Shown: piece after piece, positions 16,174 through 23,455 of the stretch
How the letters are laid out: the number at the start of each line of letters is the position of its first letter
How positions within the stretch are numbered: position 1 is the first letter of the stretch
Assembly: GCF_000328665.1 (NCBI RefSeq)
Contig: NC_019977.1
Span: 1,852,011-1,916,010 of the forward strand
DNA length: 64,000 nt
Direction: 5' to 3'
Origin: Methanomethylovorans hollandica DSM 15978
GTDB taxonomy: Archaea; Halobacteriota; Methanosarcinia; Methanosarcinales; Methanosarcinaceae
Program-made: the position numbers and the translations under genes
Notes under the pieces: generated by a model
What the model was told of the DNA's origin: nothing
Databases searched by the model: none
Seen by the model: only the letters and a program-made list of their open reading frames with translations

Positions 16174-16361
16174 GGGGTTGTGGCCTAGCCCGGCATGGCG
16201 ACGGGCTCCAGCGGATAGATGATGAACAACGGGTCTACTGAGATCTGCCCGACGGGGCTGATTGGTGAGGAGCCGTTGGAGCACTGATATGTGCTCAGAA
16301 TGCTGAAAAGCATTTGTTCGGAGAGACCCGTCGATCGTGAGTTCAAATCTCACCAACCCCA
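16174..16361 (+). tRNA. tRNA-Trp(CCA) with a 114-nt intron
   Basis: The acceptor strands GGGGTTG (16174-16180) and CAACCCC (16354-16360) pair, with discriminator A at 16361. The T-arm is GTGAGTTCAAATCTCAC, and anticodon CCA is at 16208-16210. The anticodon stem ACGGG (16201-16205) pairs with CCCGT (16327-16331) only once 16212-16325 is removed. The splice sites form a textbook bulge-helix-bulge. The outer stem is the anticodon stem. The 4-bp centre is CTCC (16206-16209) with GGAG (16320-16323). Three-base bulges AGC and AGA flank it, followed by the inner stem from GGATA (16213-16217). CCA is not encoded. A T-run follows at 16363-16367. Confidence 0.96.
16212..16325 (+). ncRNA. C/D-box guide RNA in the tRNA-Trp intron
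   Basis: The intron contains box C atgatga (16219-16225), D' ctga (16238-16241), a C'-like tgattgg (16259-16265) and D ctga (16284-16287). Upstream of D', 16229-16236 pairs with 16324-16331, and the fifth base from the box (G16233) faces C16327, tRNA position 39. Upstream of D, 16273-16282 pairs with 16205-16214 with one G-U, and the fifth base (G16279) faces C16208, position 34. By the N+5 rule it directs 2'-O-methylation of C34 and C39 of its own tRNA. This is the known euryarchaeal arrangement, although position 39 is U in the haloarchaeal case I recall. Confidence 0.93.
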
Positions 16362-17724: not shown

Positions 17725-17739
17725 AAAACATTTAAATCA
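17725..17739 (+). promoter_or_regulatory. TATA box and BRE-like element of the rpl15e cluster
   Basis: Sequence aaaaacatttaaatc: an A-rich BRE-like stretch directly before catttaaatca. Initiation about 26 nt downstream falls at 17760-17762, which is where the structured leader begins. Confidence 0.6.
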
Positions 17740-17760: not shown

Positions 17761-17830
17761 GTTTCATTCGGGAGGGATCCCGTGGGAATGTAGCCGGAAA
17801 AAGGCTGAACCGTGAAACTAAAAATGAAAC
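17761..17830 (+). promoter_or_regulatory. Structured 5' leader of rpl15e with alternative pairing
   Basis: GTTTCA (17761-17766) can close a multi-branch fold by pairing with TGAAAC at 17813-17818. Inside are hairpin 1, CGGGA (17769-17773) with TCCCG (17778-17782) capped by a GNRA-type GGGA loop, and hairpin 2, AGCC (17792-17795) with GGCT (17803-17806). A second TGAAAC at 17825-17830 abuts the Shine-Dalgarno (aaggtg, 17831-17836) of the TTG start at 17844. GTTTCAT can pair with it instead as a perfect 7-mer. This layout would suit autogenous control by L15e or a ligand switch. The function is inferred. I do not recognise a known family. Confidence 0.5.
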
Positions 17831-17843
17831 AAGGTGAACACAA

Positions 17844-18434
17844 TTGTCAAAATCTTTTTATGGATATATTAGAGATGCCTGGAAGAACCCTGATGCGACT
17901 TATGTCAAGGATCTTAGGTGGGAGAGACTCCAGGAATGGAGAGAACAGGGTTCCATCGTGAAGATCAGAAGACCCACTCGCATAGATCGTGCAAGGTCCC
18001 TTGGATACAAAGCTAAACAGGGAATAATAGTTGTGCGTGCAAAAGTAAGAAGAGGAAGCCGCAGAAATACAAGATATGTTCGCGGAAGACGCAGTCACAA
18101 CATGGGTAAGAACAAGATAACTGCAGGCAAGAGTATACAGAGAATTGCAGAAGAGCGTGCGTCCAGAAAATACCCGAACATGGAAGTCCTCAACTCCTAC
18201 TGGGTAGGCGAGGATGGCAAAGCCAAGTGGTACGAAGTGATCCTTGTGGACCCCAGTCACCCCGTGATCAAGAACGATAAAAATCTTAATTGGATCTGCA
18301 ACAGCACCCAGAAGGGGCGTGTCTTCCGTGGAAAGACCAGTGCTGGTGTAAAGGGAAGAGGTATGGGTAAACGTGGTACTGGAACCGAAAAGAACAGACC
18401 CAGTATCAGGTCTAACATGAACAGGGGCAAGTGA
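17844..18434 (+). CDS. rpl15e: Ribosomal protein L15e
   Basis: Large-subunit protein shared by archaea and eukaryotes. It is 196 aa and highly basic. Typical segments are [33 protein letters not shown], the basic stretch [18 protein letters not shown] and the C-terminal [20 protein letters not shown]. The start is TTG 17844 with Shine-Dalgarno aaggtg eight bases upstream. It opens the translation/RNA-processing cluster. Its stop overlaps the GTG start of the next gene (gtga, 18431-18434). Its leader is unusually structured. Confidence 0.97.
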
Positions 18435-18886
18435 TCCATCATATAAATTTGCGAGTGATAGCGCACTCGACGGAAGAAAAATCCAGGGTAATGGATGCCC
18501 TGGGTTTATTTTTAAAGAATTCTTTAAAGAATAAGGATTCTGATTTATTGTCAGAGCTAGTTGATACTATTGAAGCTGAAGGGCACTATGGTAATCCGAT
18601 AACGATCTTCAGCATACAATTGACCCGTAAGCACGATACAATGGCCTTCTCAAAGTTTGTCCATAATAATATGACATCGGAAGATCTTGAGACCCTTCAA
18701 AGTGAAATGCCTGACAGACTTGATGATGAACAAGTATTCCACCTGAGATTCGATAAACAAGAAGCTTATATGGGCCGTGTGAAAATTGTTTCATCCTCTG
18801 ATGCTATAACTGCTAAAGTGAAGATAGAAACATACCCAAAGAACAGGGAAATGGCAGGGAAGATAGTGGAGGAGTTGTTTGGTTGA
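18431..18886 (+). CDS. COG1325 RNA-binding protein (exosome-linked)
   Basis: A 151-aa archaeal protein of the COG1325 (DUF54) group, annotated as a predicted exosome-associated RNA-binding protein because it nearly always sits with RNase P and exosome genes. Visible features are [20 protein letters not shown] at the start and a mixed alpha/beta body. The [20 protein letters not shown] strand and a [13 protein letters not shown] segment follow. No catalytic motif is seen. The GTG start overlaps the rpl15e stop by four bases, and its own stop overlaps the rnp3 start by eight. The biochemical role is unproven. Confidence 0.85.
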
Positions 18887-19616
18887 AGGGTATTATGATC
18901 TTTGCATCCGTTACCTTCCTGAAGATGACCAGGAAATGGAAAGATTCTTATCACTTGTAACACATTTTGGTTTTAAGGGTGCAGGAATAGCACAAGTACC
19001 AAATAGCAAATCAGTGGCATCATATATAGGCCCGCGTTATTCTTTTTTTGATCTTGTGCATGGAGTGGACATACATGAAGAGAATCCTTCTAAACTCCAC
19101 TCCCAGATCAGCCGCTACGCTAAAAAAGTAGATTTTGTGATGGTAGAAGGGGGAGCGGATAAACTGAACCGTTCAGCTGTTGAAGCCGCAAATGTGAACA
19201 TATTGTCTTTGCCTTTTGGTATCAAAGATGGGGGATTGGATCATGTGATCGCAAAATTTGCTGCTGACAGAAATATTGCCATTGAGTTTGATGTTGGGTC
19301 CCTAATACGATACAGAGGCGGGAAAAGAGTGCATGCTATGTCAGAACTCGGGCAGCGGCTGATGCTTGCAAGGAAGTTTGATGTGCATATGGTACTGACC
19401 AGTGGTGCGCGGTCCATTTATGATATACGGGGACCAAGAGAGCTTATTGCATTGGCAGGTTTGTTCGGGATGACAAAGGAAGAAGCAATAAGATCCATGA
19501 CTGCTATACCTGCCGCCATCCTTAGAACAAAAAGAAAAACTCATGGCTTTATTATGGATGGTGTGGAACTTATAGAAGAACAGGCTCCTCCTGAAAAACA
19601 GGAGGAATTCTGTTGA
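18879..19616 (+). CDS. rnp3: RNase P protein component 3 (Rpp30)
   Basis: Protein subunit of archaeal RNase P, homologous to human Rpp30, with a TIM-barrel fold. It pairs with Pop5 (next gene) to activate the catalytic RNA in pre-tRNA 5' processing. It is 245 aa. Family segments include YYDLCIRYLPEDD, GVDIHEENPSKLH, VDFVMVEGGADKLNRSAVE and LTSGARSIYDIRGPRELIAL. The start TTG 18879 follows a strong ggagg (18868-18872) and lies inside the end of the COG1325 gene. Its stop makes a ttga overlap with rnp2. Confidence 0.95.
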   Translation: MVEGYYDLCIRYLPEDDQEMERFLSLVTHFGFKGAGIAQVPNSKSVASYIGPRYSFFDLVHGVDIHEENPSKLHSQISRYAKKVDFVMVEGGADKLNRSAVEAANVNILSLPFGIKDGGLDHVIAKFAADRNIAIEFDVGSLIRYRGGKRVHAMSELGQRLMLARKFDVHMVLTSGARSIYDIRGPRELIALAGLFGMTKEEAIRSMTAIPAAILRTKRKTHGFIMDGVELIEEQAPPEKQEEFC

Positions 19617-19981
19617 AAACGCTTCCTTCCAGCTTAAGACAAAGGAAACGTTATCTTGCAATAGAGATAATTACTGAACTCGAAGTATCCAGAGAAGAAC
19701 TTTTACGTGAAATTTTCTCTGCCATGGGCTCATTGTATGGTGATATAGGTTCCAGTGAATGCGCAATGAGATTGCTGGATTTTGGGAACCGGAAAGGGAT
19801 ACTGCGCTGTTCCCACATGATGGAAGAAAGATCTCGTGCAGCACTTGCAACAATAACCACCATTGGTGGACAGCGCGCAATAGTGCATGTACTTGGCATA
19901 TCGGGAACTGTGAAGGGTGCAACACAAAAGTATATAAGTGTGCAGCAATATCAGAACCCGAACATATTAATATATAAGTAA
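19613..19981 (+). CDS. rnp2: RNase P protein component 2 (Pop5)
   Basis: Pop5-like subunit of RNase P, RRM-like fold, the partner of Rpp30 encoded just upstream. It is 122 aa. The family start LPSSLRQRKRYLAIEI is obvious, and the body has ITELEVSREELLREIFSAM, LLDFGNRKGILRCSH and GISGTVKGA. The start is TTG 19613 within a four-base ttga overlap with the rnp3 stop; gaggaatt lies just upstream. The 3' end overlaps a TATA-like stretch that probably serves psmA. Confidence 0.95.
   Translation: MKTLPSSLRQRKRYLAIEIITELEVSREELLREIFSAMGSLYGDIGSSECAMRLLDFGNRKGILRCSHMMEERSRAALATITTIGGQRAIVHVLGISGTVKGATQKYISVQQYQNPNILIYK
19968..19980 (+). promoter_or_regulatory. Probable TATA box of psmA
   Basis: The sequence taatatataagta covers the end of rnp2 and its stop. 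Initiation near 20002 would give a leader of about 40 nt to the psmA ATG, allowing proteasome transcription independent of the ribosomal part of the cluster. Confidence 0.4.
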
Positions 19982-20044
19982 TAACAATGTTCATAGAACA
20001 GAGCCGAAGAATATACAGTTTATTAATATAGGAGATGATTAGAT

Positions 20045-20830
20045 ATGCAAATGACGCCACAGATGGGTTATGATCGTGCCATCACAGTATTCAGTCCGGA
20101 TGGAAGGCTCTTTCAGGTGGAATATGCTAGAGAAGCCGTGAAAAGAGGAACAACTGCCGCAGGCATCAAGGCAAAGGAAGGAGTTGTACTTCTTGTCGAT
20201 AAAAGAATTACCAGCAGGCTAATTGAAGCTGAATCCATTGAGAAGATATTCCAGATAGACAGTCACATAGGTGTTGCTACCTCTGGGCTGGTGGCCGATG
20301 CCCGTTCACTGGTTGACAGAGCCAGAGTTGAAGCACAGATCAACAAAGTATCCTATGATGAGAACATCGGTGTCGAAGTCCTTGCAAAGAAGATCTGCGA
20401 CCATAAACAGAACTACACTCAGTTTGGAGGCGTCAGACCTTATGGTACTGCGCTCTTAATAGCAGGAGTGGATGACACCAGACCAAGACTATTTGAAAGT
20501 GACCCAAGTGGTGCTTTGCTGGAATATAAGGCCACAGCCATAGGTGCAGGCAGGAACACTTTCATGGAAGTTTTCGAAGCTCAGTATCGCGAGGATCTGA
20601 GCATTGATGAAGCAATTCTGCTTGGCATGACCGCCTTATACAAGTCCACCGAAGGAAAGATTGATGCTGCAACACTGGAAGTGGGAGTAGTTACACTACA
20701 AGATCGTACATTCCGCAAGCTTGCAGAAGAAGAAGTACAACAATATGTATCCAAAGTCATTGAAGAACAGAAGAAAGAAGTAAAAGAAGAAACTGAATCT
20801 GTTTCCGAAAATGGACCTGCAGGCGAGTGA
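20045..20830 (+). CDS. psmA: 20S proteasome alpha subunit
   Basis: Alpha-ring subunit of the archaeal 20S proteasome, gating substrate entry. It is 261 aa. The N-terminal gate sequence [21 protein letters not shown] is the family hallmark, followed by [16 protein letters not shown] and [20 protein letters not shown]. The C-terminus is a long charged tail of Glu and Lys. ATG 20045 is preceded by aggagatg; an internal ATG at 20051 is an alternative. The beta subunit is not in the window. Its place in this cluster is conserved across euryarchaea. Confidence 0.97.
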
Positions 20831-20849
20831 AAGGCTTACATTACATAAA

Positions 20850-20860
20850 GTTATATAAAA
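20850..20860 (+). promoter_or_regulatory. TATA-like element before SBDS
   Basis: The gap carries gttatataaaa and a second tatataaag. The first would start transcription around 20880, almost at the SBDS Shine-Dalgarno, so it may instead support read-through or a short-leader transcript. Confidence 0.35.
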
Positions 20861-20890
20861 ATATACAGTATATAAAGTGGGGGATATGAA

Positions 20891-21583
20891 ATGGTATCTC
20901 TTGATGAATCCGTAATTGCAAGGCTTAAGAAGGGTAAGAACCACTACGAGGTCTTTGTTGAGCCAGATGGAGCACTGGCATTGAAAAAAGGGGATGATGT
21001 AAAAATAGAAGAGATAATTGCAGTTGAATCCATTTTTACTGATGCTGGCCAGGGAGAACATGCTTCTGAATCTGATCTCCTCAATATATTTGGCACACTG
21101 GATGCCCTGGTAATTGCAAAGGAAATCATTTCACATGGAGAATTGCAGTTAACGAAGGAGCAGAGAAAGCAAATACTTGATGAGAAAACAAAGCGCATAA
21201 TCAGTACGATTGCACAGAATGCAATAAATCCACAGACCAAAGCCCCACATCCCCCTTCAAGGATTGAGAAGGCCATGGAAGAGGCAAAAATCCATATAGA
21301 CCCATTCAAATCTGTAGACGAGCAAGTAATGATAGTGATGAAGGCAATCCGCCCCATCATACCTATACGTTTTGAAGAAGTACAAATAGCAGTCAAAGTA
21401 CCAGGGGAATATGCTCCAAAATCATATGGAGAGATTGCCAGGTTTGGTACGCTTGTGAGGGAAGAATGGCAGGCTAATGGCTCATGGGTAGGTGTTGTAA
21501 AAATGCCTGCGGGTATGCAGAACGATTTTTACGGTCTTGTGAACCATCTCACCAAGGGTGATGCTGAAACTAAACTATTATAA
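20891..21583 (+). CDS. sbds: Ribosome maturation protein SBDS/Sdo1
   Basis: Shwachman-Bodian-Diamond family protein that helps release the anti-association factor aIF6 from nascent large subunits. It is 230 aa with the three usual domains: FYSH (about 1-90, LKKGKNHYEVFVEPDGAL, DLLNIFGTLDALVIAKEI), a helical middle (LTKEQRKQILDEKTKRIIST) and a C-terminal ferredoxin-like domain (VQIAVKVPGEYAPKSYGE). The ATG follows gtgggggatatga. rrp4 follows after 11 bp, as in other archaea. Confidence 0.96.
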   Translation: MVSLDESVIARLKKGKNHYEVFVEPDGALALKKGDDVKIEEIIAVESIFTDAGQGEHASESDLLNIFGTLDALVIAKEIISHGELQLTKEQRKQILDEKTKRIISTIAQNAINPQTKAPHPPSRIEKAMEEAKIHIDPFKSVDEQVMIVMKAIRPIIPIRFEEVQIAVKVPGEYAPKSYGEIARFGTLVREEWQANGSWVGVVKMPAGMQNDFYGLVNHLTKGDAETKLL

Positions 21584-21594
21584 GAGGCTAGATA

Positions 21595-22407
21595 ATGGAT
21601 AGAGAAATTGTAGTTCCGGGTCAACTTCTTTCCGATAATACGAATGAGTCGGGCTCCGGAACCTATGTAAAGGAGGGAAAAGTATATTCTCTCCTTTATG
21701 GAGTAGCTAATGTAAAGAACAGGATATCTGTTATTCCATTTTCCGGAAAATATATTCCTTCCAGAAAGGATTTAGTCATAGGCACTGTTTTTGAGACAAC
21801 TTCTTCAAACTGGATCTTTGATATCGGTTCTCCTTATGATGGCCTGCTGCATGTGTCAGAGTACCCAAGGCGTGTGGAATCATCCATGATGAGGGAGATA
21901 TTTAACATAGGCGATTGTGCTATCCTCAGAATAAAAGATGTGGACGCCTCTATGAAAATAGAACTTACCCTCCGGGAGAAAGGGTTAAGGAAAATAAAAG
22001 GTGGCAGGCTGCTTGAAGTACCACCTACAAAGGTACCCCGTGTCATTGGGCACAACGGTTCCATGGTCTCCATGTTAAAAAAGGAGACAGACTGCGAGAT
22101 CTTTGTCGGACAAAATGGAAGGATATGGATAAATGGCAAAGATGAGAATATGGATAAACTTTCAGAAGCTATTGATATGATCATCCGTGAATCTCATACT
22201 TCCGGTCTGACAGATAAGATCAGCCAATTCCTTCAGATAGAAGAAGAAGATACAAAGGTGGGGGAAGAAGTTGCAGACGTTGATATCGAGCAGGGAGAAG
22301 TTGTGGAAGATATAAACTCTGCTGATGAAGAAGACGGCGAAGACACGGATAAAGTTGACGAGACAAGCAGAAAGGTAGACCAGCTACTGGATGCAGAGGA
22401 AAACTGA
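21595..22407 (+). CDS. rrp4: Exosome RNA-binding subunit Rrp4
   Basis: Cap subunit of the archaeal exosome that feeds RNA into the Rrp41/Rrp42 ring. It is 270 aa. An N-terminal domain (VPGQLLSDNTNESGSGTYVK) is followed by an S1 domain (SPYDGLLHVSEYPRRVES). A KH domain comes next (VPRVIGHNGSMVSMLKKET). The last 55 residues form a very acidic, probably disordered tail (many Glu and Asp), longer than needed for the core fold. The ATG is 11 bp after the SBDS stop. rrp41 follows after 64 bp. Confidence 0.96.
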   Translation: MDREIVVPGQLLSDNTNESGSGTYVKEGKVYSLLYGVANVKNRISVIPFSGKYIPSRKDLVIGTVFETTSSNWIFDIGSPYDGLLHVSEYPRRVESSMMREIFNIGDCAILRIKDVDASMKIELTLREKGLRKIKGGRLLEVPPTKVPRVIGHNGSMVSMLKKETDCEIFVGQNGRIWINGKDENMDKLSEAIDMIIRESHTSGLTDKISQFLQIEEEDTKVGEEVADVDIEQGEVVEDINSADEEDGEDTDKVDETSRKVDQLLDAEEN

Positions 22408-22471
22408 AAGTTCCCTGTATGTTCTGCTTATGATCAGAAAATAGAGTTAGTATATATTTGGAGAAAGTATT

Positions 22472-23455
22472 ATGGCTAATAAACCTGAGAAGTTCATTGA
22501 TGAGAATGGCCTGCGCCTGGATGGACGGGCAGTTGATGAGATGAGGCCCATGACCATCGAGATCGGTGTCTTATCAAGGGCTGACGGTTCATGTTATTTA
22601 GAATGGGGAAAGAACAAGATACTGGCAGCAGTATATGGTCCAAGGGAACTGCATCCCCGCAGGATGCAGAAACCTGATGAGGCTATAGTCAGATACCGAT
22701 ACAATATGGCAGCTTTTTCTGTAGAGGACAGAGCAAGGCCAGGACCAAGCCGCAGAAGCATCGAGATCTCAAAGGTTAGCAGAGATGCCTTTGCCCCTAT
22801 AATAATGACAAAGTATTACCCCAGTGCTGTAATAGATGTTTTTGCAGAGGTATTGCAAGCGGATGCAGGTACAAGGACAGCGGCTATTAACGCCGCCTCC
22901 ATCGCCCTTGCTGACGCCGGTATCCCTATGAAGGGACTTATATCAGCATGCGCTGTGGGTAAAGTTGACGGACAACTGGTGCTGGACCTGAGCAAGGATG
23001 AGGACAATTATGGGAACGCAGACCTCCCTATTGCCATGACCCAGGATGGAGAAATATCCCTTCTGCAGATGGATGGCAATCTGACAAAGGAAGAGTTCAA
23101 AAAAGCATTAGAAATGGCAACTGAAGGCTGCAGACAGATCTTGGAGATCCAGAAAGAAGCTTTGAAAAAGAAGTTCGAATCCCATGAAGAGGTCGTGAAA
23201 AGTCTGGTAGAAGTTGCTGAAGAAAAATTCGATGACATTCAGAACGAGATAGAACTGATAGAAGATGACTTTGAAACATCTGACTTGGAAGAGGAAGAAG
23301 GCATCGAAGTTATAGTAATTAAAAATGATGTATCTGAGTCTGCTGATGAGATATCAGAAGATGAGTTCACAGAATTAACTGAAGATGAAGATTCAGAAAC
23401 AGATAATACAGAAGATCCTGAAGCAGAGAAGGTAGGTGAAAAAGATGAGCAGTGA
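22472..23455 (+). CDS. rrp41: Exosome catalytic subunit Rrp41 with acidic extension
   Basis: Phosphorolytic 3'-5' exoribonuclease of the RNase PH fold and the active subunit of the exosome. The core (residues 1-240) has [29 protein letters not shown] for RNA contact, [20 protein letters not shown] and the [11 protein letters not shown] active-site region. From about residue 240 to 327 an acidic Glu/Asp/Ser-rich tail follows, making the protein about 80 residues longer than the core enzyme. The ATG has ggagaaag upstream. The end overlaps the rrp42 start. Confidence 0.96.

Follow-up and report, generated by a model that had tools for sequence, protein, structure and literature searches.

The window analysed here, a 64-kb stretch of DNA from Methanomethylovorans hollandica DSM 15978, carries on its forward strand rpl15e (17844-18434; Pfam PF00827, E 4.4e-84), which encodes ribosomal protein eL15 and begins with a TTG (UUG) start codon at 17844. 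The gene is followed on the same strand by an RNA-processing cluster (18431-23455), in which Pfam assigns, in order, RNA_binding (PF01877), RNase P p30, Pop5/Rpp14, proteasome alpha, SBDS, Rrp4, and RNase PH. Elsewhere in the window, a tRNA gene at 16174-16361 contains a long insert that includes a box C/D RNA (Rfam sR3, 16215-16289), which we take to be the known archaeal pre-tRNA-Trp arrangement. The region immediately upstream of rpl15e, the subject of this analysis, had been described in an earlier note as a structured and possibly switching leader, and every position given there is exact on direct reading of the sequence. All of its elements lie on the plus strand: a TATA-like promoter element, CATTTAAATCA (17729-17739); the heptamer GTTTCAT (GUUUCAU in the transcript, 17761-17767), hereafter the 5' strand of an outer helix, P0; a hairpin, P1, with the GNRA loop GGGA (17769-17782); an arm, P2 (GGGAAUGUAGCC...GGCUGAACC, 17784-17811); two potential partners of the 5' strand, i.e., a near one, GTGAAAC (GUGAAAC, 17812-17818), and a far one, ATGAAAC (AUGAAAC, 17824-17830); and the Shine-Dalgarno sequence AAGGUGA (17831-17837, with AAGGTG at 17831-17836), which the far partner abuts.

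The TATA box that had been proposed at 17729-17739 is indeed recognisable there as a TATA-like sequence, and its spacing to GTTTCAT is conserved, being 29-32 nt from the hexamer in the family members scanned. In a relative, Methanolobus psychrophilus, promoter elements lie approx. 19-22 nt from the transcript start (PMC5378194). Based on these two distances, it is plausible that the transcript starts within a few bases of 17761; the start that had been predicted at that position is thus plausible as an approximate location. The main texts of the papers considered on Methanosarcina and Haloferax gave no usable value for a mapped rpl15e start.

The core of the leader is not new. Positions 17769-17816 match Rfam family RF03144, the eL15-Euryarchaeota ribosomal protein leader, over the full model (1-48) with 42.5 bits (gathering cut-off, 33.7 bits); the match lies in the 5' leader of rpl15e, with its end 27 nt upstream of the eL15 start codon. 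It is a single copy, as no second match was found in the source genome at E values up to 1. Within the order, RF03144 was matched in 137 of 150 genomes (121 above the cut-off). In all, an eL15 start was located downstream of 166 leaders. No match was present in any listed genome of one family of the same class (f6), although matches abound elsewhere in the class. The earlier note knew of no described L15e leader family; however, Eckert and Weinberg published RF03144 in 2020, proposing it as an r-leader that precedes rpl15e and has eL15 as its only regulated gene according to the main text (PMC7247131). In that paper, too, eL15 binding and repression are predictions, and the discoverers regarded mimicry of rRNA, which the earlier note had also suggested, as unclear, the likeness in question being to a bulged-G module of 23S rRNA (PMC7247131). 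Three covarying pairs were later added to the family in Rfam 15 (PMC11701678). The P1 loop is of the GNRA type in all six genomes of the organism's own genus and of the UNCG type in many other lineages, i.e., one stable tetraloop is swapped for another. The model, with its 48 positions, stops about five bases after GAACC, so that GTTTCAT and both of its partners fall wholly or mostly outside it.

Within the single sequence, the evidence for these outer pairings is limited. Folding exceeds chance only modestly, with a z of -1.98 for the 83-nt leader but of -1.09 for a 100-nt segment. When the linkers of the source genome were shuffled, a partner with seven of seven pairs appeared in 15% of cases and two partners in 1.4%. 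A double partner in one genome is thus weak evidence, only weakly beyond chance, and relatives must therefore decide. The predicted ensemble energies of the near and far states are -24.05 and -25.01 kcal/mol, respectively, a gap of about 1 kcal/mol, and predicted folding along the growing transcript has the near pairing dominant at 62-66 nt and the far one after about 74 nt. Among relatives, the predicted fold favours the far partner in most genera, the main exception being genus g7, in which mostly neither is favoured.

The comparison with relatives supports the far partner well as part of a conserved, covarying outer helix that connects with the ribosome-binding site. Eighty leaders of the same family were collected and aligned on the core. 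Among them, GUUUCAU hardly varies as the 5' strand, and the far strand pairs almost everywhere, with seven of seven pairs in most genera. In an alignment of 18 distinct anchored rows (A3, cut around the anchors), 94.4% of cells are paired, two pairs have changed on both sides, and the covariation score was reached by one of 500 shuffles, a test that, like the Fisher test used below, ignores the relatedness of the sequences; slid versions of the helix fare much worse, with 32-50% of cells paired. The compensatory changes come from two divergent species of genus g3, in which the 5' and far strands have changed together to GUUUCGUU/AACGAAGC (G091) and UUUCCGUU/AACGGAGC (G134); these far strands, missed by the automatic far-partner pick, were set by eye and entered by hand, and the G134 row was shifted by one base. 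Seven rows were excluded from the covariation count, namely those of six g9 genomes and one g27 genome, which have lost the far word; there, a match of seven of seven overlaps the Shine-Dalgarno sequence as GGUGAAAC. Thus, pairing of GUUUCAU with 17824-17830 beside the Shine-Dalgarno sequence, as well as compensatory change in relatives, on which the earlier note had proposed to judge it, are both borne out. The earlier note was also right that the leader is structured.

The near partner is conserved in a different manner. It pairs at seven of seven positions throughout the family outside g3, except for one mismatch in G109; its covariation, however, is not significant in this family, the observed counts being reached by 90 and the score by 45 of 500 shuffles. 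It has been lost in genus g3, which keeps the far partner. The earlier proposal of two mutually exclusive partners forming a translational switch had been staked on both TGAAAC copies being retained in close species: all six genomes of the organism's own genus keep both, g3 does not, and only the far pairing shows significant covariation. A two-partner switch is therefore possible from these comparisons, but it is not universal.

These observations give some weight to a static reading, according to which the outer helix always rests on the far partner, and the near GUGAAAC is kept for contact with eL15 or the core rather than for alternative pairing. Covariation backs the far pairing and not the near one, and g3 lacks the near partner altogether. 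In addition, three other families without the GUUUC strand (f5, f11, and f29) still have a word of similar sequence, GUAAAAC, where the near partner would lie. However, the near-place G that would pair with the C of GUUUC is present, when read by eye, where that strand is present and is an A in these same three families. Furthermore, in family f2 it is the near match that has seven of seven pairs and is apparently extended, again by eye, by CCA/UGG next to a bulge, whereas the far one has only five or six. A fixed helix thus appears unlikely, although by no means negligible.

In order family f14, the near and far matches each comprise five or six pairs; in two further families of the order, f3 and f4, GGUGAA(C) of the Shine-Dalgarno sequence itself is, as read by eye, complementary to the 5' strand. 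In these families, as in f2, the 5' strand can also pair, over five to six positions, close to the start codon or to the Shine-Dalgarno sequence, which suggests that the initiation region may be reached by several routes. No outer helix to the Shine-Dalgarno sequence was found in families f8, f16, and f25, where that sequence lies only a few bases from the core.

A link between the 5' end and the ribosome-binding site is also seen in haloarchaea. Toward the 5' end, nearly all of the 44 leaders read carry CGCUGG...[A/G]CGGGC...CCAGCG, and immediately upstream of the Shine-Dalgarno sequence they have G[C/U]CCG[U/C], so that [A/G]CGGGC near the 5' end can form a helix with GCCCG[U/C] that is unrelated in sequence to that of the methanogens. 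Covariation is strong: on the haloarchaeal alignment (A2), four pairs have changed on both sides, and the covariation score was reached by none of 500 shuffles, again without correction for relatedness. The first pair is A-U in 17 leaders, G-C in 23 (40 of 44 together), G-U in one, and mismatched in three (Fisher p 2.7e-8, without correction for the tree), and another pair switches from G-C to A-U. Thus, another lineage makes the same link with a different sequence. A second CGGGC copy can also pair with the 3' strand, with no change on both sides. In leaders L143-L218, a hairpin of CGCUGG and CCAGCG lies close to the predicted 5' end, and the CGGGC copy in its loop pairs with the GCCCG beside the Shine-Dalgarno sequence, possibly as a pseudoknot; the second CGGGC copy flanks this hairpin.

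Within this context, it appears improbable that the UGAAAC repeats are mere by-products of Shine-Dalgarno-like GGUGAAA and of spacers rich in A, without any regulatory pairing. The word does resemble a Shine-Dalgarno context, and the frequency of full partners in shuffled linkers fits such an origin; however, it would not account for the compensatory changes in G091 and G134, the replacement of the far partner in g9 and g27, or the covarying, GC-rich equivalent in haloarchaea. A metabolite as ligand, which the earlier note had also allowed, was rejected as extremely improbable because it found no support beyond the overall architecture of the leader, which is structured and offers alternative pairings, and it sits poorly with the eL15 gene following in all 166 leaders with a located start and with publication as an r-leader for which the main text names eL15 as the sole regulated gene (PMC7247131). 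A terminator-based mechanism was likewise rejected, as there is no terminator-like site.

The reading that we favour, with reasonable though not firm confidence, is that of an autogenous eL15 feedback leader in which the RF03144 core is joined by an outer helix, omitted from the Rfam model, that is linked to the ribosome-binding site. That eL15 is the ligand, as the earlier note had suggested among other options, is judged likely, with P2 as the candidate site. The most probable course is that binding of eL15 to the core is relayed by the outer helix to the ribosome-binding site; pairing of the 5' end beside that site probably lets excess eL15 stop its own translation. Surplus eL15 not taken up by ribosomes would bind the core and favour pairing of the 5' strand with the far partner, so that the helix and the bound protein would impede access of the 30S subunit and reduce translation of eL15. 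In the absence of the protein, the 5' strand could occupy the near partner, which is predicted to be close in energy and to form first during transcription; the outer helix would then be clear of the Shine-Dalgarno sequence. Most of the family would use the near partner as a decoy, and g3 would manage without it. In the 100-nt fold, the Shine-Dalgarno sequence is mostly paired with downstream coding sequence in both states alike; therefore, its predicted accessibility is unchanged by the switch, and any blocking would have to be due to the adjacent helix and the bound protein.

A broader proposal may be offered tentatively: RF03144 leaders could possess an expression platform, with the opening bases of the transcript selecting either a decoy strand or the one next to the Shine-Dalgarno sequence. 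Methanosarcinaceae-like genomes would have duplicated the 3' partner, and haloarchaea would appear to have two 5' partners, the hairpin-loop copy and the flanking copy, for one 3' strand. If true, archaea, in which few cis-regulatory RNAs are known, would have a visible RNA switch for ribosomal protein feedback.

The leader shares with the RF03144 family, as described in the main text of Eckert and Weinberg (PMC7247131), its P1 and P2 core and its place directly upstream of rpl15e in Euryarchaeota. That text published the eL15 leader without stating a route from protein binding to gene control, and for eL15 it describes neither a pseudoknot nor an alternative pairing, nor any connection to the Shine-Dalgarno sequence. 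Judged by it and by the Rfam 15 model, which does not include P0, the outer helix seems to be undescribed; it would extend the model on both sides. Feedback through leader structure is familiar from bacterial ribosomal protein leaders that sequester the ribosome-binding site, as outlined in the introduction of the same paper (PMC7247131). Those leaders involve unrelated RNAs and proteins, whereas the helix considered here abuts or overlaps the Shine-Dalgarno sequence and would act from there. A conserved helix between the 5' end and the ribosome-binding site, built from unrelated sequences in methanogens and haloarchaea, gives the control route a testable form.
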